64,000 nt of DNA from Hirundichthys speculiger. Its lineage: Eukaryota; Chordata; Actinopteri; Beloniformes; Exocoetidae. The first letter of the stretch is position 1; each line of letters opens with the position of its first letter. Location of the stretch: the NCBI GenBank assembly GCA_018398805.1, contig JAGFBZ010002829.1:1538001-1602000 (forward strand), in the 5' to 3' direction. Shown here in pieces: positions 2,524-43,664 of this stretch. The notes below the pieces were generated by a model. That model was given only the letters and a program-made list of their open reading frames with translations, ran no database searches and was not told the origin of the DNA. The translations under genes and the position numbers were made by a program.

Positions 2524-4618
2524 ATTCATATTGCAATCAGTAAGACGAGCGCCAAAGTGTTTATTGATTGCAAAATGGTGGCAGAGAAAACCATCAACGC
2601 AGCAGGAAACATCACCACAGATGGACTGGAAGTCCTGGGCAGAATGGTTCGCTCCAGGGGGAACAAGGACAACTCTGCACCGGTAGAAAGAAGCTTGTGC
2701 ACACTTACACTTACACACAAACCCTTAATATCGACACAAGTTTCTGCACAGATACATATTAACAAAGAGATTATAATATTGCAAAAAGAATCACTAAATG
2801 TCCAAGGTGTCCAAGTGTAAGTCCAACATCAAATGGCATTTTAGTAGAAGAAATGAAATGAAATGAAATGAATGAATGAAATGATATGAAATGAAATGAA
2901 AAATACTTTATTTATCCCATAAAGAGAAATTCAATAATAAAAAGATTGCATGTATCTGCTATGGATCTATTCAGCAGAGGTACACACCTTGTCACCCCTG
3001 CAAGAGTGAGAACAGCTAATTTTTTCTCCATAGAATCACACATTTACCAACTTCATCATCTCATGTGAACGCTCTAAAATTGACAACAGCCACCTGAAGA
3101 CACTTTTTTTTTTTTTTTAGCAAGGCTAACATCTGCAGTTCAGTCACAAATAATGAGCTTGTTATGTCAGAACGTTTAGGAGACACTGGGGTCCAGTACA
3201 TTCTGCAGGGGATAGAGGGGTTATGGTAGTTACTGGGCGCACTTCCAGTCCTGTGTTCTGTTTGTTAAAGAACTGCAGAAAAACATTAATTTTAATGGTA
3301 ATAGGAAAGGGTTTAATTACCGTGTTTTAGCAGGTGTTTCCATTATTCAATAATCTTTTTAAACAGGTTTAAACAATGTAAATTTCAAGTGTCTTCATAC
3401 ACCTCAAGACATAATGATAATTTGACTCCCTGTTGGCCAGGTTCTGAATGTCAATTTAGAGAAAAGCCAAAAATGAAAAAAGAAAAAAAAAAACTGCATA
3501 TCTGAGTCTAGACAGTGTCCCCCAGGAGGCCGTTATTATAGCTGCTAATCTCTTTCATTTTATCTCTAAATGTTACCTGTTCATTATGTAAAAATATTAC
3601 CACAGTAAACTCACAGTTGAATAATGTTTGTGAGGGTAAAATAAGTAGTAGAATAAGTATTTAAATAGTAAAAAAAACATTTAATTTAAGTTTTTTTAAA
3701 AAAGTAGATTTGAACGTGATGGAAAATAAAAATACACCATGAAGTCTTACTAAAAAGTGCCTTTTTTGTTTTGCATACGTGATATTCTCCACATCACTGT
3801 AGCACATCAGCATAGGTGAGATCCATTTTTAATTCAAATATGTAAAAATTGCTGTATGTTTGTTCCTCCTCCTGCAGTTCCAGCTCCAGAACTTTGATAT
3901 TATCTGCAGCACTTCATGGGCCAACAGAGACAAGTGCTGTGAACTTCCTGGTCTGGTAAGATCAAGATTCATGTACACATACACTCTTATTTTCTTCATT
4001 TTGCTCCCCTGAACACATTTTTGCAGCATTAAAATTGCTCAAAGCAATAACAGCAGATCTGAGATACTTGAACTTTATGAGGTGGCTATCTCTAGATTTA
4101 TGGCAAAATCTGTTTCAAAGCATTTCACATCCTGTTTGTCCCCTATAAAGAGACTTTAAACATTTACTGTGCTACAATTTCACCAAGACATACAGTGGCA
4201 GGAAAAAGTATGTGAAACCCCATCGAATTGACAGTTTTTTTGCAATAATTTGCCATAAAATGTTGTCTGATCATCATCTAAATTATAATTATAGACAAAC
4301 ATCATGTCCTTCAGCTGATAGCATGCAAATATGAATCATCAAGTTTATTAAAATATTCTTACCCAGATGAAGTTAAGTAGCAGTTGACTATGACCCTAAG
4401 TAAAAGATTTACATTTTAAAGGGACTTATAAGTCGTATTTGGATTTTGTTCACTATGTTCTACAACATTTCATGCCATTCCATTATATCACATTTCTTTT
4501 TTGTCATTTACGTGGTGCTGTGGTCATCCAGAGGAAGGAGGTTGACTGTCCAGCCTTGCCCAAAGCCTGCACCTGCACACAGGACAGCAAAGGCCCCCCT
4601 GGCCCTCCTGGGACACCC
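2524..4618 (+). CDS. col14a1: col14a1 exons: end of TSPN domain and cysteine linker
   Basis: Three phase-0 exons. 2524-2682 (53 codons) holds the last strands of the TSPN/LamG fold, with one cysteine (FIDCKMV) and a glycosylation sequon (GNITTDG). 3878-3955 (26 codons) encodes [20 protein letters not shown], with three cysteines that should close the domain. 4532-4618 (29 codons) adds [13 protein letters not shown] and then starts the helix with the first Gly-X-Y triplets ([10 protein letters not shown]). The domain mediates matrix interactions at the N-terminal side of the helices. Confidence 0.93.
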
Positions 4619-7600
4619 GTGAGCCACACAAAAATGCACACAATTCTTTACATACACAACAGTGCATTGCTATTATCCTCAATAAACATCAACCTTAATG
4701 CACTTTTCTCTTGATTAAAAAATTCGTGTCCAAAAACTGAAGCTTGGATAAAATTATCAGTACAGAAAAGTAGACACAGACACATATTTAGTAAACAAAT
4801 GGATGAAGACAGACAATCGCCTTTCTATATTTAGTTCTTATTACATTTTGAGTTACTTTTGCATGATTCAGTACAATGGGATTTTTTTAATGTTTCAGTT
4901 GTATTTCTTTTATCATCTTTTTTTTGTCCACTTTTTGTGTTTTCAGATCATCTGTCTAACCATTCATGAGCACACAGAGTCTTATAGTTGTAAAAATTGT
5001 TTATTATCATACTGTGTTTCTAACAGGGAGGCCCTGGAATCAGAGGGGCCAGAGGTGACCGAGGAGAGCCAGGCCCAGTGGTACGTTTTGTTGGTTTACA
5101 TCTTGTAAATTCCCTGCTGCGCACACAAAATCAGACACCCATCAAGGGGCAGCCTCCGGATTTGTTTTTTGAGGCCTTCCTATAATTTGGAAAACATGCA
5201 TTACCTCAAATGACCACAGGGGGCCGACTCCAAAAGGAAGCTAATTTCCACTGACCCCCATGCTCAAATATTCACCGTTACAGCAGGAATAAACAGAGTA
5301 AGAGGTCAGTACAAAAATGGTTTAGGCTTCCCTAGCTTATTTTCACATCTATGACAACTCTACAAGTGGTGTTTTTTATGTATCTCACCAGGTAAAATTT
5401 TAAAACCATAAATTTGGCTTTCCTGTTTTTGTTTTTTGCTGTTTTGTTTCTCTGCAGTCTGTGGTGTCGTTAGCTGTCGTTAGCTTTGCTACTTAGGTCT
5501 TTGAAAACTGAAACGTCTACCAAAAGTTCAAAGAGAGCATAATCTCTTATTTTAAAGATTAGATGGGTTATTGTGCTGTTTATTGGAAAGACCAATTAAG
5601 TGTTTCAACTTAATGTTAATTTATATGTTAACTTAATGTTACCTTATAATCTTAGTTATTATAATAGATTTCTACATGCTCTCATTTGATTATCCAAAAC
5701 ATCCATGGTTTCAAAAGAAAAAGCCATGTCTTTGTGTGTGTTCTTTTTTATCAGCTATTTAGACTTTATTCCATAGTTTAAAATAAATTGAATGCACTGT
5801 GCTTAAGGAGAGAGATGAGTCCTTAAAATCACTGAGGTCTAATACATTGCAGTTAGAAGGTACTGGACGTGTTAGTCAGCAAGGTCACCAGGTAACTTAA
5901 TATATCTTCCTCTCACAGATCCAGTACTTTGATCCATTTCTGCTGTACGTCCAGTTTCCATCTAGATCCATGTATGCTTTGGATGTAGGCTCGGCGTTTA
6001 CATTCACACCCACTTTCCAGGACCTTTTGAAGAAGCAACATACTGTTAGAAGTAAAGAATAGAAAACACAATCGATTATCCCTGTGGGACAAAGACATGC
6101 TCAAAACCCCCAAAAAAATTCTGGACTGACAAACAAAACATCGAGACTATTATTTTAGCTGGTTTCTTTGCTGTATTTATTAATAGTGCTTGTTGGATTG
6201 ATTTGATCATGAGTTGTTGCAGGAGACAACAGGTTTGTCCTGATTATCCAAGATTCTTGATCAGATCAATTTCTTGTTTCTTGACACTTGACTTCTCAAT
6301 TAAAACTCCTCACGCTAAGAGTTTAGTGGCAAAGCATTTAAGAAAGAGTACCACTTCACTGTATGTCTTAGAGCTCCTGTATACTGCACAACTTCTGGAG
6401 TCATATAAGGTCATAACTTGTCACACTGTACGATTTACATTTGCCCAATCTTGGGTACGATGTCCAGAATGGTATGTGCCGACTGTACGTTGATGAGCCC
6501 TCTTGAATTGTAGGGTACTACTGATGAGAGGTGCAAATAGATGTAGAATTACGTCATCTGCATGAGCTGATTAAAGACAATAAAGGAGAAGAATGTGTTC
6601 CGGTCATAGTTAGAAAGAAGAAACCAATTTTGGATTCTTATGTTTTTTGGAATGACGCCATGCGGCCCTATCTTGCGCCAAACCTCCAAGAACCTGCTAT
6701 TAAGGGATAGCAGGTATTAGGAGGGGCGTTCCCCCACAAAGAACGCAATCTTCCACCTCCCAAAACCCACGATCTTACCTGCAAAAACCACTATATTATG
6801 CACACATTATGCATTGGAGTGGTTAGGGCGTTCCACCTGTTTAACCAATCAGTGCGTCAGTAGCCATTGCCTTTAAGAGCAGGTTGCGGTACCTGCAAAC
6901 TGCTATGGAGCGTCTTTTCATCCAGATCAGAGCAGCTCGCCCAGAGGATCACTGGCTGCTCTCTGCCCAGCCTGGAGGACATTGCCAGCTCTCGCTACCG
7001 CAGCAGAGCTGCCAGCATCATCAGGGATGCATCCCACCCTGGCAACCACCTGTTTGACCTGCTACCCTCAGGCAGGCGGTACAGGTCACACAAAACCCGG
7101 ACAAACAGACTCAGAGACAGTTTCTTTCCGCAAGCCATCACTGCAATGAACAATCACAAATGACCAATACTGAACTGCACTACTACTGCAATATTTTACA
7201 AATGGACTTATGTGCAATAAGATTCATCCACCATTTCAAGTGAATGTCTACTGTACAGCTTTTGAATGTACATATATTTACATAGCACCTGCCACTTTTA
7301 TATCTTATATTTATATTTTATATCTTATTCCTATTTTATTTTATTTTACACAAATGCACCAGGAGTTGCACTCAAATTTCGTTGTATGCAATACAATGAC
7401 AATAAAGGCGATTCTGATTCTGATTCTCTCATGGGCAGCTGGTCTGGGACTCTGCTGTAGAGCTTCCTCCTCTTTTTTCCTCCTCCTCCTCTGCAAATGA
7501 TTTAATCATTTCTTTTGTACTCCAAGAAGTTACAACAAACTGTTCAGAAAAAATAGAGCCAGTGAGCTTCCAGGAAAGCATTTCTTAACTAGAAAAGCAC

Positions 7601-9532
7601 TCAGAGAGCGCAGACCTCCGCCAAGCACAACAGTTCTCCCATACAGCGATTTATAGAGGTTTTCAGTGTCAATACCTGAGTGAAATTTAATGAGCTGTGG
7701 GCAATAATTAACGGAGATGTTGAGAAACAAAATTTCCGGCTCCATTGAGCGTGTGTTATGGTCTCAAGCCGGGTTGTGAACCGCAACCTTCCACCTCTGG
7801 GGCTCCTGAGCACAACCAACTGCACCACCTTCAATCCTCTACATAGACACTCAGATCCACCTATGTTTCACCTTCCCATCCGACGAGCAGCCCAGGTGTG
7901 GCACTGCACACCTGTACCTATTCAGTCATCATTCAACCAGACTCGTCTCCAGATCTTCCCATAGAAACGCCTGATCCAGCCATTCGCAGTGCCACCTCCT
8001 TACATTCGTCGTCCCCTGGATTGTTGGTTTGGCTGCCAACCCTCGAATCCTCCTTTTTTACATCTGAGAAAATTAAACTCTTAAAATTCCAGAACTCCCT
8101 TCCTGTCTCCATTGTGGTTGCTTTAGGGTTCAAGAAACAACTAAACAGCGCAATGTTATCGAAAATTTGAAAGTGATCCAGAATCCAGGATTTCTTCCGG
8201 ATCACACCCAAAATAAAATCAGTTCTTCCTTTTCACATTTCTGACAACTCCTGAAAATGTCATCAAAATCCATCCATAACTTTTTGAGTTATTTTGAACA
8301 TATCCCCTGCGCAAAGACGCACAGCTGCGCCAAGACGCATAGCCGCTGGAAGCGGTGCTTTTTAAAATACTGCAGAACGGATCATTGGATGAGCATTGAG
8401 CCAGAGGAACACGTATGATGACATCTACCTTCTACCAGTGAGCACATCTCGGGTGCTTCCGGTGCACAAGGAGAGGATCAGAGGGATACGAGCACAGTAC
8501 AAGAAACTCCACAACAGAGTTCTGTGATCTCCTCGTTTCCTCCACAGCAAACATCTGAATGAGATCATGCCACAGCTGTACAGAAATCACCTGCCCTTAA
8601 GAGAATAATAACGTAAGAAAGTAATACAGTGATGCGTAATCGAGAGGTAGAGCCGGTTGTGCAGTCCACATGTGACTGGGTGGACGCGCAATGACCCGAT
8701 TTGGACGCGCTCTTTTACGCGCCAGTTGGGTAATGGGTGGTCAGACCACCCATTACCCAATACCCAAAATCTGCGAGATACAGGTACCGCAAGATACCGA
8801 ATTTGTGGAAAGCGCAAGAGACACGCCCATTGCCGCGCCCACAATGTGCTTAAGGGAGACGGCAAAATGGGTAGCAGGTTTTGGGAGGTGGAAGATTGCA
8901 TTTCGGTTGGCAGAGGCTCCTAAATCTGAGATTTGCAGGTAATGGGTATTGGGTATTGGGTATTGGGAGGTGCAAGATAGGGCCCCATGTCTTAATTATC
9001 AATGCGTCATTTCAAGCTGCTTTATTTGGCTGGTAAGTAGACAGAATTGTTGGATTTGCTCGCAAGGCTGGTGTGACGGCCGTCGACAAACCACTCATAT
9101 TGTAGGATGTAGGACAGTCGATTTTGGCCAAAGACCAAAGTTATTTCCATGATTCTTTTACAATATTGATCTTTGGTCTGCAACAGCAGATGAATGAACG
9201 GGTCACATTATCTGCTTGGCTTCGAGGTTTGCAGATGTCTGTCCATGACCCCTTAATTGGAAACTGGTATGCTGCAGCAGTGAAACATTTAAGACAAACA
9301 GGGCAGTGGTTCTTGAGGACCAGGATTGAGAAACATTGATCTGTATTATTTATTTATTTAAAATTGTAATATATTTCACCTGTAATTTAGTTCTGATCCG
9401 TCTACCCATTTCCATTCATCTTTCCAAGCCTTTGTTGTTACTGCCTCCAGACCGATCCAGTAGTCTCCATGTCTATCCAGTCCACGAACAAATTCCTGAT
9501 CATTTTTCAAATTAAAAGATTATTATATTCTC

Positions 9533-9568
<36 letters not shown>

Positions 9569-12500
9569 AATTTTTCAGGCTTTGAATAATTTCTTTTTAG
9601 TTACGGTGTGTAAAGCCAGATGTGAACAATAAAAGCAAGGTTTAACCAATATATAACAATACACAGTAATTGTAAAGCACCACAACATTTAATTTAACAG
9701 TATTAATGATCTAATTATGACTGAAGCTGTAAAAGACAGAAAAATATGTGTGAATGATTGAAAAGTCTGTTTGAATTATGAAAAAATTGTCTAATCTTAA
9801 TTTAACCAAGATATTTAACAAGGACGAGGATCTGATAGTGAGGAACAAGTCAGAGCGTCCACAACAGAAGATCTTGTGGGATAATCTCAGACAAATCTCG
9901 TTATAGATTAACAGTCGAGGACTAAGGAAGGAAAACTCCTCAGTCCTTTCTGCAGGAGTCATGTTACAATTCCAGCCTCAGAGATTTAACCCTGGCTAAT
10001 GTGAGCTGTCTTTCTGTTTTTGTTGTTTTTTTTGTTTTTTTTTTGGTTGGTCACCATTATTTTATTTCATTTGCTGTAACATGATCATTTTAGATTTTGA
10101 AATCAAGTCATGTTAGTTACAGTTACTTTAAATGTAGAGAAATCAACTGAAACACAGCTTGCTTTTTGTACTGTCGAGTTTTTATTTATTGCACGATTAG
10201 AATGGATCTATTTTTATCTTTTTCATTAAGTTTTTTTTCCTCCCAGTTAGAAAATCTTTGAAGCTGCTGGCCTGGCATGTCCACCCCTGACAACACCTAT
10301 GTTCACATATACATGCTTACACATCAAAGCAGGAACAGATTAAACTCTTTCTCCTGGAACCCATGTATTACCCCGTCCATAAATGTCACGAGTTAAAGTT
10401 AATAGCTTACATAATCAGACACTTACTTGTTTTTCTTGGCTATTTATTATCACCAGATTGGCCCCTCTCATCCTGCAGTCTTCCTTGCTCTCTGTCCAAG
10501 TCTTCTTCTCAGTAGATGTGTAGTAACAATTGCACTGAAACTTCCTCCATTCTTTAAGAAATGTTTTTTGTCAGTTAGGTATTTCAGCATATTTTGCAGT
10601 TCATGCATTCATACTTACGTGAGAAACATTTCTCACCATTTTTTTGTCTGCTTATCTGCTTCTCTTCTTCCGACAGGCAGTAACTGTTCTCAGATAGTTT
10701 TGTTAGATAATGAGAAAAGTTTTTCTTCTGCTCCTCAAATTTGATACTTTGCTCTTTCCCTTTCAAACGAACAGCTTCATCTAGGAAAGAACCATAAAAG
10801 AAATGCACATGATGATGATCTACAAATACCCTATTTAAGGCCACTTATTCAGGCGACTCAGGATGTGGCGTCAGAATGAAGGCGAAGTCCTCACAGAAAA
10901 TGTACAGGACAGTGATCCCCACTAACAGCAGGAGACACAGGAGACCCAGAAACAGTGCAACGGCCTTGAAAGGATTTCTCTTGTCAGCTGGACGATAGTT
11001 TTGAGAGCGTGCTCCTGCAAGGGCAAAGCAAAGGATACAGTGTAAACAAATTCCTCGTCAGGGACAGAAAAACAATTTCACATATAAAAACACTGATGCT
11101 GATTTCCTTTGGTCATCTGCTTCTTTGATTATGAACGACTAAACAACAGTAGAATGGTAAAACAAGAAGCAGGCAAGCTAGAGTCTGAAAAAATGAGTTT
11201 GGATTTAAAAGTTACTGAAGACTTGGAAAAAAACAGCAACTGGCAAACAGAAATGTAGCAAATGTAATAAATGGGAAAAGGACAAGTAATTAAAAGAAAA
11301 GCAATAAACATGAGAACGTAATATACACTGGGAAGGATAATTAAATGATCACAGCTGTTAAGAAGAACGTCTATGCAAAAAAAGCAAGCGCGGAAGTAAA
11401 TTACCTAATAAAAACCACATTGAATATTGCTGAAGCTGATGTAGAGATTATTTCACATGACAGTTTCACAGCAGTTTATGAAACTTGTGAATTATAATCT
11501 ATCAATCTGTGATCTTTAGTAAAAATCTTTTTTCTGTATACACAGAAGTGAAAAAGTCTTTACGTTTTAGACCAGTAATAAAGGCTGATCATAAGCAGAT
11601 CTAATGTCCAGTGGAAGCTTGTTCCACAATTTAGGTGCTACAACTTTAAAAGCTCAATTGTTTCTGGGCACCTCTGAAAGCAACTGATTAGTTGACCTTA
11701 ATGCTCTGTCTGGAGCATGAGCGTGAAATAGCTCAGTCAGCTATGGAGGTGCCAGCCCATTCTTGACTGTGTGACCACAACTCACACTATCCCAAATGGC
11801 TCTACCCTGCCCCCCGCTTTCTCCTGTTCAACACCTCTCCTTCTGCCCCACCTCCACCTGTGAAGACATCAGTACCATCTGTGCTCTCTCCCTTCCTCTT
11901 CACCTTATACACCACTAATTTTCAGTACAACTCTGAGTCATGTCACCTGCAGAAGTTTTCTGATGACTCAGCTGTTGTTGGGCGTGTAAGAGGGGGAGGT
12001 GAGAGTGAGTACAGGGCACTGGTGGACAACTTTGTAGAGTGGACGGAGCAGAATCACCTGAGGCTGAACGTCAACAAGACCAGAGAGATGGTGATCAACT
12101 TCAGGAGGAAGAAGAAGCCTGCACAGCCTCTACAGATCAGAGGGGAGGTGGTAGAGGAGGTGGAGGACTACAAATACCTGTCAGCAGTCTGGACTGGAAA
12201 TCTAACACGGATGCTGTGTACAAGAAGGTGATGAGCAGACTCTATTTCCTGAGGAAGCTGAGATCCTTCAACGTGTGCAGCAAGATGTTAGAGATCTTCT
12301 ACCAGTCTGTTGTTGCCAGCGCCCTTTTCTTTGCTTTTGTTGCCTTACTTATCTTTTCAGTTGCTGCTTGCTTTTCAAAACAAGCAGACGTCTTTTAATC
12401 AGGTTATATAATAATGTGTTCTAATTTGGTTTTACTTTGAAAATACTTTAAACAGGAATTCTGAGTAGGTTGAGTCTAGTGAATCAGGATGACATATGAC

Positions 12501-15500
12501 TCTGGGAATAATGATTGATTACATTTAGATATAAAAAGCACATTAGAGACACAACCAGTATGTTAACGTTTCCTGTCTGGTGAAGAGGAAGTACTGATTC
12601 TGATGGTATCTGTTTGTATCAAGGTTCAATGTTTACCGTATATACAGTAGTTAAAAAGCTAACATGGCACCTTGCTTCTCAGGCTGAACTTGAGAGCAAG
12701 TTCTTAACACATCAAAAAGGAAGAGCAGGCTCAGAAATGTTTATTTCGCTCATCAAATGTACATTTCTTTTACTTCGGTAAAATGATTTGGCTTTAAAAG
12801 TTGCTATCACCAATGTTACAACTTTAAGTTAAAAGCATGAGAAAATACTAAACCCAGTGTAAATTGGCCGCAGCTTAAAGAAAACAATAAAATTATTTCA
12901 TAACATGTTCTGATCTTTTAGCATTATTTTATTAGTATCAAATTTATATCATGAAGATGTAGTTTATGGCAAAGGCTTAATTTGAAAAGAAAAAAAACCC
13001 CTAATTGTCAGGTATATTTAGTTTGAATTCTACAGTTATTGATATTTACCTCCACGGTGCATTGAAGGAATAACCCGGCGGTCTGTAAAAGTGTCGGTGC
13101 TCTCGTAAATGTCGACCACTCTTTCCATTCTCTCCCTTCCATCATCTCCTTTACTGTATCTCATGGTTAAGGCACAGTTTGGTTCCTCATAAATGTTAAA
13201 AGACATCTTAAGATGTGCAACATCTGGGAGTTTCGTTTATTTCACCCAGTGCTGTCACTCTAATACTCTACCAGTACTGCAAAGTAAAATTTTGACAGAT
13301 TTTTTTTTTCTCCTAAAATGCAACTAGACCCTCAGTATTCTGATGCTGCTGCCTGGATTTGCTTTACTGCTTACTGTTTGTCTCTCTTTATGTTGCTGTT
13401 AACTGTTGGTGATAACTGAGCCTAAAAAGGAAGTATTCAGGATGTTGTGACAGGAAAGCATGCACGCATTCAGTGCTTTATCTCTGTTTATCTCTGAACA
13501 GAGATAACTAAAAGGGCAATAGATTTTTTTTATTATTAGACCTATAGGGGAGTCTACATTTATATGGCGTAAAAGGTGTCTTCATTTACTTTGTTTTTGC
13601 TTCTCTGAGAGCAACATTTTGTAAATACGAGTACAATTTTACTGCAGATGTGCTTTGTTGTGTTCTTATCGATGCAGTTTTTCTTTTTTTCCTTTTTGGC
13701 ATCATCTTACAATCTCAGATACTCTCAGGAAAGGAAGCTGAACTACCTTCATCCATCAGTCTGTCACACAGATGGGTTTGCTACTTTTGTTTTTTATTTT
13801 ATTCAGATATGCTAGTTTTTAGTAGACATATACATTATGGGCCTAAGTTTATAAAAAGTGTATAAAATATGAATGAAGTTCTGAATATAAATAGAGATTT
13901 AAATCTTACCCTCATCAAAGTATAGGACTGCTAATGGAAATGTTTTATTTCTGTCTGCATTGTTTTCTTAGCACAGTTTAAAGATAAGGCAGAAATATAC
14001 AACATAAGCCCTCAAAAAAGATTCCCTGTTAATGTCTGTGTTATTTCTCTGATATTCCACAACACCTTGAGTTGTTTGTTTCTAAAATGGATATTAACTT
14101 GCAGAATCGTAGACAGATTACCATTTCATAAACGGTAGCATTCAATGGAAATCAAAGTCGGCTTCAGTGTGGAGCACTGTCGTGGGTGTCATTTATCCAG
14201 CACCCCTCAGTGCCCCTGTTTGTCCCACAGTTAGGACTCTGGTCTGGCTCCATCTCTATAAACCATCTATAAATATGTATCTGACGCCCGGGTCTATCTA
14301 CAGTTTCATGTATTGATCATTTGTTCATTGCTGCTATTCTGTGACAGCCAAGGTCTCTGGGAATGAGCCTTGGCTTCCACTCACGAAATGATATGCCTGC
14401 AGAACACACAACATAAAGTGAAAAGCCTGATGAGTCCATTTGAGAGCCATTGTATACTGTATACTCATTTGCTGTGCTTGATCACAAACCTGCTGAAGAA
14501 AATGTAACTGCACTGTGTGAAGCTGACCAAAGGGGTTTTGGGAAACTGTCTCTAATGACCACTCACAGCAGTATCCTCATATCAGGCTGCAGCAACTGAT
14601 GAGCAACTTTTCTGTCACTCTTCTCTTTCAGGGGCCAGCTGGTCCCGTTGGAGATACAGGTGTACCGGGACCACAGGGACCTCCTGGGCGACAAGGACCC
14701 AGCGGCCGCTCCATTCTTGGGCCCCCGGTAGCCTTCTGTCTCCAGCTTTTCAACTGCACTGTTGCCATTTTTCTTTTTTATAAAAACTTGGACTTAACAT
14801 GTGTTGACATTTTATCTGCAGGGTGCTGCAGGAGAGAGGGGTCAAAAAGGTGAAGTAGGACAACAAGGATCACAGGTAAAAGAAAAAAAAAAAAACCAAC
14901 TGTCCATTCACCATTTTCTGTCTATTCTGGGGTTACATTAAAATATTGAAATTAAACTGATGTCAAACAACTTGACAGTTCTTAAAGCATTTTTTTTTAC
15001 TTTCAACTCACTGTTAGTAAGATACCAAACATCTAAATGTGTAGAAAACTAAAAAAAGAAATAAAATAAATTAAAAAAAATCAATTTCATGGTAATATGA
15101 CCTTGTGGAAAAGAATTGTTGTAATTCTTTTTCCATATAGTGCAGGCTGATTGCTGTTCCTGAGTTTGTCCATGAAGCATAAATAGAGTGAAAAGTAAAG
15201 TCAGGTTGTTGTTTTGAAAAGTATCTTAATTATGCCTTCAACCCGAACAAGTCCCTAACTGTGAGATTAAATCATTAATGGCTTGTTGAATTTATTAAAG
15301 GCAAGAATTTTTGAAATATTATCTTTTTCTGTGCTCAAGAACATACATAAATTGATGTCTAAAATGACTATCGTCTCAAAAACTTCAGAAAACTAAACAG
15401 CCCTTTCATTTTTTTTAATCATAGCCTCCTAATTTTGAAAATGTACCTTTGGTGAGCCGTTCAGATTTAAAGACATTATGACATTACAGACTGAGAGCAG

Positions 15501-18500
15501 AGTAAATTATGCATACCTTGTACCTTGGAAATTGTATCTACTTTGAAATAAGGGAAACATCTCCTTTAGAACATTGACTTTTAGAACTGAGTCTGACTTT
15601 TCCTTCTCCTGCTATTTCAGGGAGTTCCTGGGAGACCTGGAACTCAAGGGAGGGAAGGACCGCCAGGACCCCGAGTGAGTCAACTTTATGTTTATATTTA
15701 ACCTGCCACTGTTAACCAGGAGCTACATCCAGTTTACTAGTCTGGATTAAACTCTGAAAAAAAAATGAAATTAAAGTTTTGACCACTAGGGGCAGTTTCC
15801 AAAAGCAAGACAACCTGCACTGACACGCATGTTCAATTACCCAAATATAGTTACAGCCTGGTTTAAAAAATTGTTTTGGTCTGAACAGTTAGAAAGATAA
15901 AATTTCATAAAGTCATAAATGCATGCATAATTAGGGTGTGATCTTTTGTTGATGGCTGTTTCTAGTTAATGGCTGACTTCTGATCTGCTAATCATTCTTG
16001 CTGTAAAGTGTGGATTGTTGGGATGTTAATGGTAATAAAAGATCACTGTGACCAGTTTTGGTTGGTCTGGAAGGATTCTGGGAAAAGCTTAGCAAAGCAG
16101 CCTCAAGCAGCAGCAGTTTCTGCATTTAAAATGTACAGCATTTGCATAATACTTTGATGTTGAATTTAAAAACTAAAGACAAACACTGAAGTCATTAGTA
16201 AAATGAAGAAATCCAAAAAACAAAACAAAACAAAAAAAAAAAACCTATCAACCAGCTATCACACTTTTATTGACACAAAACATCTCGTTTTACATTTACA
16301 GGGCCTCCTTGGCAAAGATGGGCCAGCGGGCAGACCGGGCCCCCCAGGGTCTATGGTAAGTCATTGTAAAACTTATGAAATGATAATGGAAAAAAGAAGG
16401 TACACCCTCCTTCAACAATGTACATCCCAAAATCCTACATTCAGTCTTGTTGTGGAACTTACAGCTTTAAATACTTCATACAAGTTTTGTTTGTTTGTCC
16501 TAAAACATATATAATTTGTACTCAAGCTACAATATAAATAATTATAAATGTTATTTGTTGTTTAGAGACTTTTCAGTTATCTGTAGACATTCATTACTTT
16601 TTTCTGTTTTTGTTTTTTTTTTTTTGTTAGTTGTGTTTGTGGTTTTTAATAAAACTGAACCGCATGATTTATCTGTAAGAGTAGAACTGAAATGTGGATA
16701 TAATGCAGTGCATTTCAGAAGATACTGTCAGATATGAATCAGCACCTCTCCAAGTCAGGTTAAGTGAGACTGCACTTTTTTTAGGACCGTTGTTGAGCTA
16801 ACTGGAATTATTTTTATTTATTCTTATTTTTTTGCTTTGTCTTTTTAGGGGACACCAGGAGCTCCAGGATCCCCAGGAAGTACTGGCACTCCAGGAAAAC
16901 AGGGAGAACTGGGACCACCGGTGAGTCAGTAAACATAGCTCTTTTCTTCACCAATCTGGGATTTATCTTTTTATGTGCATTTTTCAGCACCTTTCTCACA
17001 AATGCTGCTTTGGTAAGAAACCTTGCCCACTGTGTAAATATCCAGGAGGCAACAGGATATGGTGTCAGACAAACAGAGACAGCACACGTTGACTAATGCG
17101 TCTGTCAGCAGGTTTAACAGTTGCTTGTTCAGTCTGACGCTCGGTTGGCTTGTTTGACACCGACACACACTCACACACGAGGACATGAGTAAAGTGAATT
17201 CATGTTGGCATAGCAGTGGAGATTTAGATAAAAGAAAAACTTGTCTGACCCTGAAACATAGATAATTTAACCCATTTCGTGCTGCTGAAACAACATCAAA
17301 CCCGTCAGTGCAATTATTTTTTTTTCCTTCATTAAAAACCAATAATCATATTTCCCATTTTCATTATTCCTAACAGAATTTCTGATGGCTCATAATTCTC
17401 CTTTTCAGAACTCAGAACTGGTACCAGCTTCCTAAATAGGTGCCCCCCCCAGTCTCTGTCACACTCACAGTCTCAGCTCACCATCTCTGCACGCTGGCTT
17501 TGACTTTAAGACAATATTAAAGTGCACCTCATGAATGGACTGTGCAGTGCAGCTCTGCCTCCATTACCCTATATTTATGAGAGTAAGGCTTTCATTGGTG
17601 TAAATAATCACTAAATGTTTGTTGACAATGTTGCTGTTCAGCTTGGCAGTACTGAACATATTTTTGAGTTTTGCTCACACATTGACTTTTGCTTAAGCAA
17701 AAGTAATTCTCATTTCGAAGCCATCTCCAAAGATGAAGTGACATTAATGTGGAAGGTGATAAACATCATTGCTGTGATGAAATACTGTGAAGCGTGTATT
17801 TGCATGTGCGTGGGTGGACCACAGATAATACTTCTCAGCCAAATAACACGCTGTTTTCACTGCTGGTCGCAGTGACCGCAGGTTTCCCTGGTGATTTAAT
17901 AGATAAAAATGTACAGTAGCAAGTTTTTCTGCAAAACATTATTACGTGACAGAAGAAAGTTTTATAACAGTACAAGGTTTTACTTATGCAGCCTTTTTAC
18001 CATCTGTTGTATTTCTTCTCATATTTGCATAATGTACAAATCCCATATATTTTTGGATGAATCTGAAAATTTCCTTTATAGATTTATCTTTATCCACTTT
18101 TTTACGTGTTTTTCATTATTTTTTGTCTTGGATCTGTTATAAGTGTGTATTTATTGAAAGACTGGCTGCAAATACGTGTGCTTTTCTTTGAGTTCGTGTT
18201 TCTCCGTTTCTTCTTTTACTCTGCTTTTAAGACGATAGCTTGATTTGGTACTGAAGGATTTATCACTGTGGTGATAAAATTAGTCAGTGTAAGTCAGTAA
18301 AAACATCTAAAAAGGTTTTATTCAGACAATCTAAACACACATGGTGAGAGATGAAATTAAAAAGAGAAATGTAGGTATTTATATATGCTTTCATAGCCTT
18401 TCTTAGTTTGATCAATGTGCCAAATTTTATAGTTAGCTTTTATAATCAACTCTCTTCTGTTGCAGGGTCCTCCTGGAAGCAAAGGGGAGAAGGGTGAACG

Positions 18501-21500
18501 GGTGAGTGTCTCTGTCCTTTAGGCACTAATGGTCTTTATGTCTGAATTACTAAACAAGAAAAAAGTACTCCACGCAGAAACTGGTCATCGGGTTAGTTTC
18601 TGTTCATGCTTGGTATTAAAATAGATATAAGCGTTTTCAGTCATTATTTTATGGGCTTCAATCCACACAAACCCACCGCCATAAACTTTTGTGAATGATT
18701 TCTGCTGTTGATATTTATGACAGATTCTGACAGGATGTCCGACTCAGGGTTCAAAGAGATTTCTGAAGGAGGACCATGATAAATCCTCGAGAATAGCTAT
18801 TTGTGCACAAGTTTTAAATGTAAGACGTTACTATTACATCACGCAAAGGAGTCTGATCTGATCTGAGCCCGTTTATGGTCAAAATCGACTGATGAATGCT
18901 GTAATGTGGCTCATGTTAGGGAACCCAGTATATGATGTCATGTTTGTCCATGAATATATTTTTCCATAAATGAATGTAAAAAAAAGTTCAAATCTGAACC
19001 ACTTCATCTGTTTAAAATACCTAGAGCTAGGTGTGGATTCACATGTTAACAACATCAGCAGTACAGCAATGATCACAGCTGGAAAAATGGCAGATAGAAA
19101 ACATGGGATGAACAGTATAACCATCCTGCTCCCAGTTTATAAAGTTCTTCAGGACATGAGATAAACTGGGAATAACAGTATTTTGTTTCCGTCTTCAGGG
19201 TGACCTCCAGTCAACAGCATCAGTTCAGGCCATCGCCAGGCAGGTCTGCGAGCAGCTGATCCAAAGTGGGTGTCAACGTTTATAGTGTCACCATGACCCT
19301 TTTAAAGTGTTGTTTAAAAAGTTTATCAGAATTAGGGATAATCTGCACAAAACAATTTAAGATTACTCGTCAAGTGTGACTAGTCTGCCTAGTAAATGGT
19401 CTTGAGCAGTGGTTCTTTTTACTTTTAATACTGCGTACCACCTGAGAAACTGTTCAGCTCTCTGAGTACCACCATGATGACCAATTTTGAAATATAGCCA
19501 TATATGCCTTCTCAATTAGCTTTAAACAAACAGAGATATTTATTTCTTATTGTGGTTATTTATTGTTGCCTGAATTGTTACTTTACTGAATCAGACATTT
19601 ACAACTCTATCCAACAATTCTCACATACTCATATATTTACATACTTATATATATGTATACATATTTATAATATATCGTATGTTTCCGATTTTTTTAAAGT
19701 GAAAATGTGGAAAGTCATGACCTTCCCCCGCGTACCACCAGAGAGCCCTCGCGTACTGGTGGTATGCGAGTGAAGTACAAATCCGGTTTGTTACCAAATC
19801 ATCAAATGTCTTCAAGTTTTAGAGGACATGCAGTTGGGGAATTTATACCCATTCTATGTGCTGTTTCCACCATCTAACATACAAGGTAGTCAATCCACTT
19901 CAAGGTCCGACATGTTTTGCCTCTTTAGCGTGATTTAGAATACTAGATATAATGTCTCCTTTCATTTGTTGTTCATTCACTATATCCTGTCCGAAATCAT
20001 TCAAGTGCAAATTCTTCCATTTTGGGTCAAATGATGGAAATACATCTTTTTTCTTTTTCCTGTTACAGGCCACATGGCACGCTACAACTCCATTCTGAAC
20101 CAAGTACCCAGTCCACCAGTGTCCATTCGCACAGTACCCGGACCCCCAGGTGAGCCTGGTCGACAGGGATCCCCAGGGCCCCAGGGAGAACAGGGACCAC
20201 CAGGAAGACCAGGCTTTCCAGGACAAAACGGGCAGAATGGAAACCCAGGAGAAAGAGGTAAAGCAGTCAATAAAGACTGCCAATAAAGGAGATGCACTGT
20301 GATGAGCACAATTTGGAGAGCAACTTCAGATATATTCTGTTTTCTGTTATCAACCAGTTGTGGATGTGCTAAAACCACATCACAGCTGCACAAAGTGTAG
20401 AAGAGACTCATCAGCTACTACTGACATTGCAGTCTGGATTACTAGACTTTGTGTAGATACTCATGAAAGACAATTCACTTCTTTCACTTCTTCTCATTGC
20501 ACACTTTTAAAAGTGTTCCATGCCTTGTTGTTCAAAAGGCATGTAATATTGGCTGAGTGATCTATCAGTGGTTATCTGTAGTGTGAAAATTTGAGCTTCA
20601 GAAAGTGTAAACTTAGCTTTCTGTATGTCTGTGGGAGGTCTTACCCATGTAGAAAGAAAAAAACAGATGTACCAACTGCTTCAAAGAGACATCTTGATTA
20701 AGATGTTTATCTTGTCTACAGGCAGAAATCAAAATCAGCTGTGTTTCTGTCAAAAATGTCAGCATCTTTTAGCACTTTTATTAACGCCTGTGTCCAGGGC
20801 AACCAGGGGAGAAGGGTGAGAAAGGATCTTCAGGGGTTGGTGTCCAAGGCCCCAGAGGACCACCAGGACCTCCTGGTAAGTGGACCCATCACCAAGGCAT
20901 TCCATATGAATCCAGTCTGATCTCAGTCTGGTCTTGATTAGGGGTGAGTATTGGCAAGGACCTCGCAATATGATATGTATCATGATACTTGGGTCACAAT
21001 ACGATATTATCACAATATGGTGATATCATGATACATTGCGATATTCTACCCAGTTAATATCAAAATTAAAAGTAGAGATGAAAAATCAAGTTGCTGTATA
21101 TGTTCAGATGACACTGATCATTCAGAGGACAAATTGAGTCAAAACTATTTGCTTCAAAACAACCTATTTATTGTTTATTAGTGTTTTTGCACATTTAAGT
21201 ATTCATAATGCGTCTAATACACGTCTAATACATGAATACATGAATTTTCCTAAAAAATCGATTTTAGGAGCTGAAAAATCCATATTATATATATATATAT
21301 CTCTATATATATATAGAGATATATATATCTCTATATATATATCTATATATATATATATATATATGAAACTATAATATATATTATGTGAATGAAATCTTAG
21401 ATACCAAGTTTAGACTTCTAAAATCTCTTTCCGACATCTTACCAGGTGTCCAAGGACAAGGCAGACCAGGAAGCCAGGGCCCATCAGGGAGACCTGGAAA

Positions 21501-24500
21501 TCCTGGAGCCCCTGGTCGATCAGGAGTTCCTGGACCAATCGGCCCTCCAGGACCTCCAGGATACTGCGACCAGAACTCCTGTGTGGGCTACAATGTCGGA
21601 GGTATGTCTGGTCCAAAGTAATCCCTACAGTGATTGTAAGTCTATTACATTTGCATCACTTAAGAATCTTGATGCCGAACTACAACTGAGTTGATCTTTG
21701 TGTCAACCATATTATTAGTCAACACAGGCATTCACAGTGATTGCTGTAATGACAGCAATAGACCAAGTTTCTAGTAACACTTACATAAAACCTCAAATTT
21801 TGTAATAAACAGACATTTAATGTTTTCTTCCACTGATGATAACAGCAAATAACTTACTTAAAATGCATATAAGTGTAAACTGTATAACTGAGCATGAAAG
21901 CACCTGAATGCTGTTAATACCTTTTGGTTTGAGGGTCATCAGGTGTAACATCTAATTCATTTGGTTGCTTTTCATGTGTTAAAGCTCCCATTGAATTAAA
22001 CGGGTTGCATGCCAATGAAGTCATCCATCCCACACTCAGTGTATTTGAAGGTGAAACGCCCTGAAATACACTCACAGTTAAGATACTGAATTCCATTTTA
22101 CTACCACCAGCTCCTCTGTGTGTGTCTTCGGGTTGCATGTCTGAAACACACAATAAATTCATATTGAGACAACAATTTTTAAAATTTTGCTCAATTTTCA
22201 ATATCTCAGTACACTGAGCTTGTTTCGGAGAGCAAACATCCAAACAACAAGGTGTCCTGAAAGATCAACTGTGAGGAAAATGAGCTTCTTCAGTATTTGA
22301 GTCCTCAGAATTGTCTGTCAGTCACTACCCTTAAAACATTAGACACACAAACAAGCAAACATTTGTTGGGTCCAATTTTTAAACCTACATTTAAATGGTA
22401 ATTAGTGCAATTTCAGCATCAATGCTCCAAACCTCAGAATGTTTGTCTTTAAAATAGCTCAATTTGGTACCAGGTGGGGTTTTAAAAAAAAATTCATTCG
22501 GGGGTCTGAAAAGGGACTAAATATGCCAGATAAACTGTGTGACAGTATTACTTTAGAGTTTTTATGTTGCACATTCATCAGTTGAAAATTAGCTTTCTAC
22601 TTCACAAGAAAATGAAATGTGGAGAAAGAGGAAAGTGATTTAGAAAACAAAACAAAACAAAGTATTTACATCAAAGTAAAATATTTCCCAAACTGCTTAA
22701 TGTGAGATGTTACATAAGATTTTGATTGAGCTAGCCAAGAGGAGCACTGGCTTTTACCAACATTTGTTAGCTCAGAATTCAATTCAATTCAATTCAATTT
22801 TATTTATATAGCGTCTGTTACAATGTCAATTGTCTCTAGGCACTTTACAGAGACCCAGAGCATGAAGACAACACAGAGATTAATCATGAGTAATTAGACA
22901 TCAACTGTAATAATTTGCAAATTAAACCAAGTTTTCACTTGATTACATCCCTAAGAAAAATATATCTCGTAATGAATTGGGTGGACCAACCTTCTAATCC
23001 ATTAAGCCCTGATGCAGTATTAAGGGCACTGCAGTTTTCATGCTTAGAGGGGTTATGAATGGCTTCAGCTGTCTTGACATTCTTGAGTACTCTTCTGCAG
23101 TATGCACCTGCATGATTTATCTGCAGCCAAATCACTACTGAATTCTGCATCTTAACATGTTGGTGTTCAGCTATTTAGGTGTCGGGAGTGTGGGATTGGT
23201 CAAATACTGAAAAGATGCTCTTTGAAGGGTTTTCTTGACATAAATTTGAACAACTTCAAATCAAGTGAGCAGACCTCGATGGAAATATTTACGCCATTCT
23301 GTTTTAATACGGATAACTGGATTCATCTGAGCTACATGTAGAAACCAGTAAATATTCAAATTGCAGAAAACCCCTCAGGAGTTGTCTTTAGCCATTAAAT
23401 GCATGATTGTGTTCGTGTTTGATGTGTGTCGAGGTTAAACGTTGCATGGTACTAGTTCACACTGTAGAACTCGTAGCCGGCCGGGTTGTCATGTGAGTAA
23501 CACCTGCACTTTGTAATCATTCTTTTTATGTTTTTGTTTGTGTCTGTCCATCTCTGTCTGTTCGCCATCCTCTTGTTTTGCATTTTTATGTATTTATTTT
23601 TCTTAACCAGCACAGCATTATAGTGACTACTGAGCCACATTTCACAAACACCCAAAGCAACAACTGCATCGTGGCTTTAACCGTTTCAAAAGCTGCAAAA
23701 TACTCAGTCAGTGCATCAGTTGATTAGCTGCTCCAGACATAAACATTGTTATATACCTAGAGTTGCTGTGATTGTTTACTTAAAATGATTTTTTTTTTAC
23801 TTGTCTTTGTCACAAATGTATAGTTAATCACACATCTTTATACTTTAAACTATTGATCAGACCAGAAATAACACTTTTACTCATAAAGTGCAAAAAGTAT
23901 AAGAATATTATCTTTTGGCCTCTTATAGTTACAGCAGTCGATGTATCATTTTGAAGAATAACATGTTCATTAATTGATACTAAAACCAATTATGAATTGC
24001 ATATTGAACCAATCATAAAGCGGTATATCATAAAGCATTGGATTAAATAAGATTGCACAGAGGTCCATCCATCCATCATCTATCCGTGCTTCCATATTAT
24101 TCAGAGAACAGGGGTCTGCTATCTCAGTCTTTTGGGTGTGAGGCAGGAGCACACCCTGGACAGGCTGAGGTCACAGTCATTTTAGGGAGTATATGATGGT
24201 CATAATAAAGCAGTCATACCTTTACAGTGTTTTTGGCATTTCCCAAAAGAAGGCTGTAACTGAATATGTCTTTGTCTAATTCATCATCTCTTTATCCTCT
24301 GACTCTTATAATCAGTCTGCATCATGAACTTGGAACTTGTTTCATGAAAAAGATAATAGTAATTCAAAAAAACAAAGTATCAAGAAGCCTAGAGAACATT
24401 TGTACTCGTGGGACTGTTTTAAGCACTGGGTGAAAAACAAGAATGCAACTATTTGGGATATTTCAGGTTTTCAAGAATGAGTCAAAATAAAATCAGGTTT

Positions 24501-35049: not shown

Positions 35050-35409
35050 TCAGGTTGGTTCTAGCGTGTCATACCCCAGTATCCCAGTTATCTGCTCCTC
35101 GCAGAAGGTGAGCTGCACCTGCTGCTCAATGCTGGTTAGAGGCATCTCTTCCGCAGGCCCTCCACCTGTCTTGTTTGCCGAAGTTTTATTAAAGGCCACT
35201 TTTTCTTTAGTTCTTTGCCTTATATCTTGCCACCTTCTTTTAACCTCATCTGCCGTTCTTTTTGTTTTACCAACTGCATTTATTCTATCGCAGATTTTCT
35301 CCCATATTGCGTTTCTTTTGGTAATGTTTAAATTTCTTTGCTGTAGTTCATGAATGTGTTTATTTGCCTCTTCCACTAATATCTCTAACTCCAACTCGTC
35401 AAATTTCAT
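35050..35409 (-). CDS. Myb/SANT-like DNA-binding protein of the Harbinger element
   Basis: 119 residues, intact frame. The N-terminal half is a Myb/SANT-like trihelix: ELEILVEEANKHIHELQQ, then RNAIWEKICDRINAVG, then RTADEVKRRWQDIRQRTKEK with the conserved W spacing. This resembles NAIF1/MSANTD-type proteins, which derive from Harbinger ORF1. In active elements the protein binds the transposon ends and carries the transposase into the nucleus. The C-terminal half is short for the family. It could still supply protein to related elements in trans (inference). Confidence 0.75.
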   Translation of the reverse strand: MKFDELELEILVEEANKHIHELQQRNLNITKRNAIWEKICDRINAVGKTKRTADEVKRRWQDIRQRTKEKVAFNKTSANKTGGGPAEEMPLTSIEQQVQLTFCEEQITGILGYDTLEPT

Positions 35410-35764
35410 TTTGTGCTTGCGTCTATCCTGCTTTCCATCCAGACTCTCAATGGCGCAAACCGTAAGACACCCAACACCTCATTTAAATACTGCGGTTTGC
35501 ACCCGTTATCAATTGCGTGAGCATTCTTAGTTGATCACCCGCAAAACACACAACAACAGCACGCGCAAACTTTTTCAGTGCACACGCAATTTAGTACTCT
35601 TTATTTAGGATCTTAGTAAATCAGGCCCAATGTGTAGTGTACACTGCAGCCTCCCAGTTAATTTATCAAATCGGATAAGAAAAGCCACCCACATTAATTT
35701 TCCATAACTACTTTGGTACCACATCGATCAGTCAGTACTGTATCCTTGACCAAAAAATTCAGTC

Positions 35765-36010: not shown

Positions 36011-37030
36011 TGTGACACCTACAAATGTATGGTCACAATTGTTAAATTGTTTGAATTATTGTGTAATTTGCTGTGAAAAGGGCCCAATTTAAATGTGTTT
36101 CTGGATGTGTTTTAGTAAGGTGCGTTTCCTCAACCCCACCACAAGAGGGAGTATCGTCAAAAATGAGCGCTGGTTGTAGTAATATGCGCCAGGCTTCCAT
36201 CCCTCAAACAGAGGACAGCCTGTCGAAGCAATACAACTGATGGCTCTTGTCTGTACTTTTCCTGTACAACACAGGTTAGTAATGTGTGTAAAGTTGTCAC
36301 AATGTATCCCGAAGGACTTATAAAGCCTTTTTGATGTTGTTTGAGTTAAGTTTGAGACAGAAAATGGGGTGTTAGAAACTTTAAGGGACGTAGCAATATA
36401 GCTTTCTTTTCCACGGTAAATAATGAAGCAAAATGGCGGCCGTACTGTCGATGTTTTCATTTGGTTGTATAGAGCTCCTGGGCATTTCCATTTCATTTCA
36501 AATGTGATTTTGATTAAAACTGTTAACTCATTGTACTGTGTTTATAAGGTAAACATGTTAAACAAGGTATTTTTGTATGGTTAAAAGACTGACATTTGTT
36601 AATATAAGGTCGGCATTATGGTTTAGAAATGTGTAAATGTGTTCAGACATGCAGTAGAAGCGAGAAGCTGCTAAGCGGGCTGTAAACACAGTGTAGTATC
36701 ACTGGTGGGATATTTTAGCTAGGTTGGTTAAAGCAGCATGTGTAAAATGTGTGTTTTAGAGCACATTAGTTATCTACAGTGATTTGTAGTTAAGCTGTTA
36801 CTGGTAATGACAGATGGATGTTATGTTAACAGTATTAAGTTAATTAAGATGTGATGTTTATTGGAAGATATGATGTTTAACATTGTGAGAAGAAATATAA
36901 AAGCCTGTTATTAATAAAACAGAGGACAGCCTGTCGAAGCAATACAACTGATGGCTCTTGTCTGTACTTTTCCTGTACAACACAGGACATATCTTCTGCT
37001 TACAGGTAACTCATGCTGAGGCCTGTAACA
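36011..37030 (+). repeat. 5' LTR of the Ty3/gypsy element
   Basis: Begins TGTGACACC and ends CTGTAACA. It differs from the 3' LTR by two substitutions and one T indel in about 1020 bp. TATAAAAG lies at 36896-36903, and AATAAA a few bases on (36913-36918). A 70-bp segment occurs twice (36206-36275 and 36917-36986). The target duplication CATG is at 36007-36010. Confidence 0.93.
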
Positions 37031-37060
37031 GAATTTTGGAGGCACCGCTGGGATCGGCGT
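37031..37060 (+). other. Probable primer-binding site region of the gypsy element
   Basis: Directly after the LTR, after a few bases, comes TTTTGGAGGCACCGCTGGGA, which starts with the TGG expected opposite a tRNA 3' CCA. I have not assigned the tRNA. Confidence 0.6.
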
Positions 37061-37256
37061 CATATGCGAGGCGATGCTGATCCATTAATCCACGAACCCA
37101 AGGCAGACATCACAGGATTGGCGTAGTGGAGCAGCAGATGCGTGACTGAGGCAGCTACGGGACCACAGAGTGTGAGAGGGACCCCAGCTGGAGGAGTGCG
37201 GCACTGCTTGCTCAAGATTACTGTACTGTGAGACGCTGCTAGCCGAGGAAACCGAC

Positions 37257-37622
37257 ATGGAGGACGTTGAAAGGAAAGAACTGGCATGGGAGATAAAGAA
37301 AAGTCTTCACACGCTGACGGCAGAGGAACTCTTTCAAGTCGACAGGAACATCACACCAGTACCTGATCTGGATCCTTTAACTGTCATCCAGAGTGATGAG
37401 GAGAGTTGTGTTGATTACATATGCACATACGTGAGTTGCAAAACATTGCTTGATTTAGAGGACCAGGGATTGTCTCATTTGTTGTGTTTGAAAGATGTGA
37501 TTACTGGACTTATTGCTATTCGTGCTACTGAAGTCAGCCAACCTGTAGTATCAGGGGGTGAGGTTGTTATACTGACATCAACACCATCTTCACCCACCAC
37601 AGTAGCACAGCAGAGTAAGTAA
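37257..37622 (+). CDS. Small ORF upstream of gypsy gag
   Basis: 121 residues starting [20 protein letters not shown]; the first 90 look like a compact helical domain ([53 protein letters not shown]) and the end is a Ser/Thr/Pro linker. It lies between the leader and gag in another frame. Similar N-terminal helical segments precede gag in other fish gypsy elements as far as I recall, but I cannot name the fold. It may be fused to gag by a 52-nt intron (GTAAGT at 37615, CTGCAG ending 37666), which brings the two frames together, or by frameshifting. Confidence 0.6.
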
Positions 37623-37674
37623 CACAGAAAGTAAGTCAGCAGACACACTTACCATCGATTCTGCAGATCCACAA

Positions 37675-40600: not shown

Positions 40601-41709
40601 GTCGTTTGGTCTCAGCTGAGGGCGTGCGCATGGATCCGAAGGATCTGGAGGCAGTGTATGTGCTGAGGAAGGAAAAACCTACTACTGTCGGAGAGGTAAG
40701 GAGGATCGTTGGCTTTTTGAGCTACTATCGCTCATATATTCAAGATTTCTCAAGGCTAGCGAAACCCATCTATGAACTTTTGCAACAAAAGAAGAGCCCA
40801 GAGCAGTCTCAGGGGAGGTGTGGGGGGCCGAAGGGAAAGGGAACCCAATTACCATCCAAGACCCCAGTCCAATGGACTGAGACACACCAAGAGACGCTGT
40901 GCAAGCTGATTGACATGCTGGCGAACCCCCCTGTTCTCGCCTATCCGGACTTTGAGCTGCCGTTTGTACTCCACATGGATGCCTCTGATAAAGGACTGGG
41001 AGCAGTCCTTTACCAGAACCAGGGTGGCACACTCCGAGTGATCGGATATGGCTCGAGGACCCTCACACCCGCTGAAAGAAACTACAAGCTCCACTCAGGC
41101 AAACTTGAGTTTCTCGCTCTGAAGTGGGCCGTCTGCGAGAAATTCAGGGATTACTTGTTCTATGCCCCACATTTTACCATCTTCACAGACAATAATCCCT
41201 TGACGTATATAATGCGGACTGCTAAATTGAATGCTGTTGGCTTCCGGTGGGTGGGTGAACTGTCCGATTTTAGGTTTGACATACGCTACCGGCCCGGCAA
41301 AGTGAATGTTGATGCGGACACTCTGTCAAGATGCCCACTCGACATTAGTGTGTTTGTTTCAGAGTGCACAGAGGAGCTCCCTAGAGAGACTGTCACTGCC
41401 ACGTGGGAAGGCTGTAGAGCAGACAAGGATGGGGACATCGCCTGGGTTGCTGCCCTGGCTCTGTCACAAAGTGAGCAGGCTGAATTAAGCAGTAGGGAAC
41501 CCATACAACCCATTGACCTTGCTGAACTGCAAAAGGCTCAAAGGACAGACCCAGTGATAGGTGAGATCCTAAAGATGAAAGGCTCTAGCCAAACTCTCAC
41601 AGAGGACATGAAGCGGAATGTGACAGGCACAGTGAGAAAAATGATGCACGAATGGACCAGACTTCACATTGAGGACGGGATCTTGTATCGTAAGACAACG
41701 GAGAGATGA
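37675..41709 (+). CDS. Gypsy Gag-Pol: gag, protease, reverse transcriptase, RNase H
   Basis: The open frame runs from 37675 (a TTG codon; first ATG 37690) to TGA at 41707-41709. Residues counted from 37675: gag to about 370, with an alpha-helical capsid-like part and a zinc knuckle [14 protein letters not shown] (about 354-367); aspartic protease around 446-456 ([13 protein letters not shown], active Asp in DTGA); reverse transcriptase about 760-1010 with [23 protein letters not shown] and the catalytic YLDD near 928; RNase H from about 1098 ([30 protein letters not shown]). All catalytic residues I can check are present. The true N-terminus may lie in the small upstream ORF. The stop falls between RNase H and integrase. 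Confidence 0.92.
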
Positions 41710-43557: not shown

Positions 43558-43664
43558 GAGATTAAGAAGGAAGCAAAGATAGCACTGAGAGTTGAATGAT
43601 ATTGAGTAAATGAGTTAAAGAGAGTAAAATGTCAGGAGCCATTTTATTTTTTTGTTGGGGAATG

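Follow-up and report, generated by a model that had tools for sequence, protein, structure and literature searches.

Genes nested antisense within a host gene are common in animals (PMC13309782 and PMC12274878, both in excerpt), and one intron of NF1 holds EVI2A, EVI2B and OMGP on the opposite strand (PMC7692384, in excerpt). Here we describe a further instance from Hirundichthys speculiger, located in a 64,000-nucleotide (nt) stretch of contig JAGFBZ010002829.1 (positions 1,538,001 to 1,602,000 of the forward strand; assembly GCA_018398805.1) that was analysed over its whole length and is referred to below as the window: the entire coding region of a C-type-lectin-like receptor lies on the minus strand within one intron of the plus-strand gene col14a1b, paralogue b of collagen type XIV alpha 1. 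As far as it is described in the excerpt, the NF1 locus is a close parallel in presenting opposite-strand genes in one intron of a large host, but it differs in that the proteins and the host are unrelated to ours and that three genes rather than one are nested. Given how common nested antisense genes are, the case described here is a new instance and not a new kind; it is a well-formed one, with broad linkage of the two genes across percomorph fishes. No description of a lectin gene nested in col14a1 was found in the literature searched, which comprised best-ranked results and few subscription journals, so that this absence is weakly shown.

Whether fishes possess natural killer (NK)-type lectin receptors was an open question as of 2004, according to the excerpt of PMC514892. 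The same excerpt describes the cichlid killer cell lectin receptors (cKLR; Sato et al. 2003), which have a lectin domain without calcium/sugar residues and whose assignment to group II or group V is disputed; likened by description and not by sequence, the window receptor resembles them as a teleost protein whose lectin domain is free of these residues. Also compared by description only, LycCTLR from Larimichthys (PMC4691118, in excerpt) is similar in its N-terminal tail, membrane segment and C-terminal lectin-like domain, but reportedly has five exons, the sugar motifs EPD and WYD and a set of six conserved cysteines. Two zebrafish lectin genes have been placed on chromosome 16 by synteny, with no link to col14a1 stated in the excerpt of PMC6400144. 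A set of percomorph receptors annotated as CD209-like, CD94-like or KLRB1-like (among them Siniperca chuatsi P0003, Odontesthes bonariensis P0002 and Perca flavescens P0004; P numbers are our handles for lectin sequences) is alike in full-length alignment and in tail motifs, and shares the transmembrane segment, the stem cysteine, a lectin domain lacking the second disulfide and, where testable, linkage to col14a1b, although the identity of these proteins to the window protein is only 43–54%.

The receptor gene consists of six minus-strand coding exons between positions 13206 and 5897 (Table 1), which join to 789 nt corresponding to 262 codons and a single stop codon. All five introns display GT-AG borders, with phases 1, 1, 1, 0 and 2, and the start codon, which is preceded by AAG and hence has a purine at position -3, lines up with the first methionine of the family members in the alignment. 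With regard to the host, the col14a1b proteins of Menidia, Oryzias melastigma and Poecilia mexicana (three of three tried) align across the two collagen exons that flank the receptor with no residue missing, indicating that these exons are consecutive and that the whole lectin coding region is held by one intron. An earlier note on this DNA had proposed just such a full antisense type II receptor gene within a col14a1 intron, built from six exons with matched phases: its exon coordinates were all confirmed, and the frame, splice sites and flanking collagen exons check. Its supposition that automatic annotation could miss the gene fails for the family, since dozens of fishes have annotated relatives, albeit under a variety of names. 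Its statement that collagen and receptor would be transcribed through each other is an inference.

Table 1. Features of the nested lectin gene, its collagen host and the mobile-element-like sequences in its introns (window positions)
Feature	Position	Strand	Description	Basis
col14a1b, window portion	2524..25859	+	15 ordered exon blocks reaching the C-terminus	protein-to-window alignment
col14a1b exon	5027..5080	+	upstream of host intron	100% to Menidia, Oryzias and Poecilia col14a1b
col14a1b host intron	5081..14631	+	9,551 nt; contains entire lectin coding region	
AATAAA, further	starts at 5584	-	312 nt 3' of lectin stop	motif match only
AATAAA	5765..5770	-	candidate poly(A) signal, 126 nt 3' of lectin stop	motif match only
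lectin exon 6	5897..6023	-	domain end (WICE), stop codon; zero Cys between W223 and C257	
insert in lectin intron 5	6651..8997		inverted-repeat-ended, about 2.3 kb, mobile-element-like	inverted-repeat pairs
lectin exon 5	9380..9495	-	mid-domain, WIGL and W-W-D core	spliced frame, alignment
lectin exon 4	10427..10551	-		spliced frame, Lectin_C profile, alignment
lectin exon 3	10637..10780	-	stem including Cys127	spliced frame
lectin exon 2	10895..11014	-	membrane-proximal tail and transmembrane helix; acceptor TTGCAG, donor GTGAGG	spliced frame
remnant in lectin intron 1	11767..12228	+	long interspersed nuclear element (LINE) reverse transcriptase	RVT_1 E 0.00019, under curated cut-off
lectin exon 1	13050..13206	-	start codon at 13206, cytoplasmic tail with VDIYEST; donor GTAAAT	spliced frame, family alignment
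col14a1b exon	14632..14727	+	downstream of host intron	

The identity of the host as paralogue b is indicated by its first 160 residues, which among the best 120 of 2,186 collagens are 96% identical to Poecilia mexicana and about 90–93% identical to many other percomorph collagens, some of which carry the label 'Collagen, type XIV, alpha 1b'; the same set includes a further group, near 76–77%, that looks like the other paralogue, with Chaetodon auriga and Siganus showing both. The collagen tree, which served only to place the species roughly, groups the window sequence with those of Poecilia, Kryptolebias, Oryzias, Menidia, Cololabis and one further sequence (support 0.978) and so points to a probable atherinomorph fish, the joined 388-residue query used for homolog search and tree being without exon 19196–19279. 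An extra collagen match (64%, two of three queries) at 40482–40553, outside col14a1b, was excluded as chance. As for the receptor, tblastn of 130 lectin proteins (the window's own included) against the window gave 418 matches inside the lectin gene and a single one outside (P0199, 24% identity, E 0.002, 50312–50644), which was judged to be chance: this search found no second lectin gene in the 64 kb, and a lectin cluster within the window was rejected on this ground. A retrocopy origin was likewise rejected, since five introns are retained.

The homolog search with the window protein returned 48 sequences with E no higher than 0.001; the alignment spans 100% of the query in 26 cases, and the best (E 4.8e-78 and 6.2e-78) cover the N-terminal tail as well. 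These homologs come from many spiny-rayed fishes, in which they are annotated as CD209-like, CD94-like and by other unrelated names, and are homologous end to end across tail, transmembrane segment, stem and domain; the identity range given above holds for the family in the alignment. Tree support is 0.992 for this family as a whole, which comprises subfamily A with the window protein and its sister subfamily B (0.774). Subfamily A was listed by eye (68 sequences with the window) from a partly incomplete tree print-out that also showed the cysteine feature discussed below; the common ancestor of this list takes in one more sequence, P0034, giving 69 tree members, and 3 of the 130 sequences (P0037, P0038 and P0229) were too short for the tree. 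In the domain tree, the window protein belongs to a group of 21 members (support 0.983) that come from rainbowfish, damselfishes, cichlids, silversides and killifish/livebearers, and groups immediately with damselfishes and rainbowfish (0.554). Member P0026 (239 residues) lies on a 927-nt record that appears to resemble a spliced transcript. In Zoarces viviparus, P0191 and P0202, one from each subfamily, carry adjacent locus tags (VZT92_015787 and 015788), and the two subfamilies are probably neighbours in this fish.

Residues W142, Y150, W159, C166, W195, G197, L198 and C257 are conserved in all 68 listed subfamily A members. Of the 69 tree members, 68, the window protein among them, are free of cysteine in the interval from W223 to C257, the exception (P0034) being an isoform with a divergent C-terminus, as against the 57 other sequences, where this interval holds two cysteines in 42 cases, none in 7, one in 4, three in 3 and four in 1. 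Two cysteines are also the rule for most otophysan and clupeid relatives, and subfamily B exhibits an adjacent cysteine pair in this interval in 22/34 sequences; 7/34 have none, and thus the loss of the disulfide is not unique to subfamily A. Subfamily A has therefore lost the second lectin-domain disulfide, and the window protein has also lost the sugar/calcium motif: neither EPN/QPD-like nor WND-like motifs were found in it, and one or both are present in most otophysan and clupeid relatives.

The window protein itself consists of a roughly 70-residue tail, a membrane segment (residues 71–91) without a charged residue, a stem with Cys127 and a C-terminal lectin-like domain. The Lectin_C profile matches residues 155–259 over its full extent (1–107 of 107; E 1.4e-14) with 55.2 bits against a curated cut-off of 22.6, which places the protein in the C-type lectin-like superfamily. 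Solved structures matched by sequence are a mixture of what we take to be groups II, V and VI. Modelled for the relative P0003, rather than for the window protein, the structure shows a predicted local distance difference test score (pLDDT) mostly above 90 in the lectin domain and below 50 in the tail (whole mean 74.5), and its nearest solved folds include CD23 (Foldseek E 1.1e-09; template modelling score 0.81 by target) and NKR-P1B (E 3.7e-09), which has been solved with its protein ligand Clr-b; scavenger receptor C-type lectin, CLEC5A and CLEC9A are also near. CD23 and NKR-P1B share the fold of this model but keep the second domain disulfide that is missing in subfamily A. A sugar-binding receptor of the CD209/DC-SIGN type (group II) was rejected due to the missing calcium/sugar motifs. 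Loss of these motifs agrees with group V NK-cell receptors, but the second disulfide, which group V presumably keeps, is absent, and the protein was not filed as group V.

Neither an immunoreceptor tyrosine-based inhibitory motif (ITIM) nor a hemi-immunoreceptor tyrosine-based activation motif was found in the window cytoplasmic tail, the single ITIM-like match of the protein, IFYEAV, starting where the membrane segment ends, at its opposite side from the tail. An ITIM-like pattern occurs in 0/62 subfamily A members within the first 70 residues and in 1/69 within the first 60, and the membrane core is uncharged in 62 of the 66 members with a clear membrane segment; signalling via an ITIM or a charged-membrane adaptor hence finds no support. 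Cysteine occupies the Cys127 position in 59 of the 67 subfamily A members having a residue there, and the motif [DNH]IY[DEY] appears twice within the first 70 residues in 48 of 62 full-length members. VDIYE is present in 39/69 sequences of subfamily A, 23/32 of subfamily B and 12/24 outside, and so the motif predates the subfamily.

The linkage of lectin and col14a1b in other fishes was analysed using the best 120 of 492 lectins, a further set of 48 lectins and the best 120 of 2,186 collagens (115 lectin rows and 84 collagen species, typed by hand); a shared record was judged from equal record size, no such size coincided across different species, and all counts given here are among the matches listed. 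Of the 25 species with listings for both genes, 19 have them on one record. For subfamily A, every species with a listed col14a1b record shares it with the lectin (13/13): Perca flavescens, two Sebastes, Poecilia mexicana (357,261 nt), Trematomus, Etheostoma cragini, Pelmatolapia, Cebidichthys (1,066,771 nt), Larimichthys, Chaetodon auriga, Chelmon, Cheilinus and Clinocottus. The short Kryptolebias lectin P0229, which is outside the tree, also shares the col14a1b record, as do 9 of 10 rows and 5 of 6 species of subfamily B, compared with 0/6 rows of lectins outside the family. A shared record is absent from Clarias, Trichomycterus, Carassius gibelio and Astyanax, whose lectins do not belong to the family, from Oreochromis niloticus (P0237 of subfamily B, with a cluster spread over three contigs) and from Dicentrarchus labrax. 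The last species was set aside because the sole placed collagen listed for it (77%) appears to be the other paralogue, col14a1a. Acanthopagrus latus presents both situations, with a subfamily B lectin on the col14a1b record and a second lectin, outside the family, off it, whilst the linkage in Pholidichthys counts little given a record of 481 Mb. Thus, the lectin-col14a1b linkage is old, and a shared record as small as 357 kb makes it close; the nesting was seen in the window alone.

From these results we consider it very probable that the window holds a genuine, intact type II C-type-lectin-like receptor gene nested on the minus strand of one col14a1b intron, and that this gene is the local member, probably the orthologue, of the col14a1b-linked percomorph family. 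Several observations weigh against this: the polypyrimidine tracts upstream of exons 5 and 6 are weak by eye; the nearest relatives are only 51–52% identical in the homolog search (54% in the alignment), none being close; support for the subfamily A clade is only 0.327; a frame evolving neutrally in simulation would still be free of stop codons with a probability of 0.45 at 0.02 changes per site, such that a recent loss of function or expression is possible; and shared records in other species demonstrate linkage, not nesting.

One alternative we hold to be possible albeit doubtful: linkage could be conserved percomorph-wide whilst the nesting is lineage-specific, with one copy from a local cluster having moved or been duplicated into the intron. 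Both subfamilies lie on one record in 7 of 8 species compared (Epinephelus fuscoguttatus, Melanotaenia and Zoarces, for example), from which it follows that a cluster exists, and the single lectin gene found in the window would fit such a move. Indirectly against it, the gene tree, as judged by eye from the partial print-out, broadly tracks the fish tree as a single ancestral locus would, although the node at which the window gene joins rainbowfish and damselfishes is weakly supported (0.554). An explanation of a different kind, that the nesting is regulatory, transcription of the receptor reducing or truncating that of col14a1b by transcriptional interference, or vice versa, appears quite unlikely to us. 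Precedents are reported at H13/Mcts2 for interference (PMC13309782, in excerpt) and in C. elegans for a nested gene that induces its host (PMC12274878, in excerpt), and conserved linkage would fit, but linkage is also expected from inertia, since an intronic gene is hard to move.

That the lectin is instead a recently silenced pseudogene, its frame intact through too little elapsed time, is highly improbable. The weak tracts at two acceptors would suit this explanation, as would the chance of an intact frame at low divergence (0.14 at 0.05 changes per site, in addition to the value given above); however, splice pairs, start, stop, poly(A) motif and domain core are all intact, and the terminal branch of the window lectin amounts to 0.44 residue changes per site with the frame undamaged, where the simulated probability of no stop falls to 0.0215 at 0.1 and 0.005 at 0.2 changes per site: an intact frame on so long a branch points to selection. 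An assembly error that put a lectin contig inside col14a1b, which the earlier note had named as a refuting outcome, is scarcely credible, as no point in its favour was found, the window has no N, the collagen exons are ordered on both flanks with nothing missing, and the same-record linkage in other species argues against it.

Beyond the two in the lectin introns (Table 1), the window carries further mobile-element-like sequences. A LINE reverse transcriptase at 59937–60884 (RVT_1 E 2.3e-13) is by eye similar to the fragment in lectin intron 1. An apparent long terminal repeat (LTR) retrotransposon spans 36089–44196, with two long plus-strand frames (37606–41709 and 41710–43557) in which zinc-knuckle, reverse-transcriptase-like and integrase-like stretches were recognised by eye only, and is bounded by near-identical minus-strand frames at 36089–36541 and 43696–44196. 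A Tc1/Sleeping-Beauty-type transposase remnant lies at 53291–53947 (HTH_SB E 9.1e-24), a minus-strand Myb/SANT-like DNA-binding frame at 35053–35478 (E 1.7e-15) possibly belongs to a Harbinger-type element, and a 452-residue minus-strand frame at 61342–62697 is by eye like ZBED/hAT-type transposase-derived proteins, with no Pfam match at E 0.001.

As to function, the missing sugar site, the conserved stem cysteine and the tyrosine-bearing tail suggest a dimeric, protein-binding, NK-type-like receptor. Judging from sequence, the receptor would probably form a disulfide-linked dimer via stem Cys127 and would probably bind a protein ligand rather than a sugar, the former being made likelier by the missing second disulfide together with the missing sugar/calcium motif; it probably signals through the tail tyrosines in [ND]IY[ED] motifs and not through a charged-transmembrane adaptor. 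The lectin gene would probably be transcribed from its own promoter in leukocytes and the host collagen expressed in fibroblasts. In the parallel case of the NF1 intron, EVI2B is a leukocyte surface protein. In a broader and, taken as a whole, unlikely scenario, the receptor lineage may have entered col14a1b early in percomorphs and stayed there as a nested antisense pair, its domain dropping the disulfide and sugar site to become protein-binding and NK-receptor-like, with receptor and collagen transcription constraining each other, for instance in wounds, in which genes of the matrix and of leukocytes are both active. For the percomorph family, col14a1b as a fixed landmark would allow one locus to be traced across species in place of CD209-like, CD94-like, KLRB1-like and CLEC2D-like names, and the subfamily-wide missing second disulfide is a clean structural case in a lectin-like domain; if the nesting is conserved, the locus would offer a natural setting in which to test whether a matrix gene and an immune gene interfere with each other.

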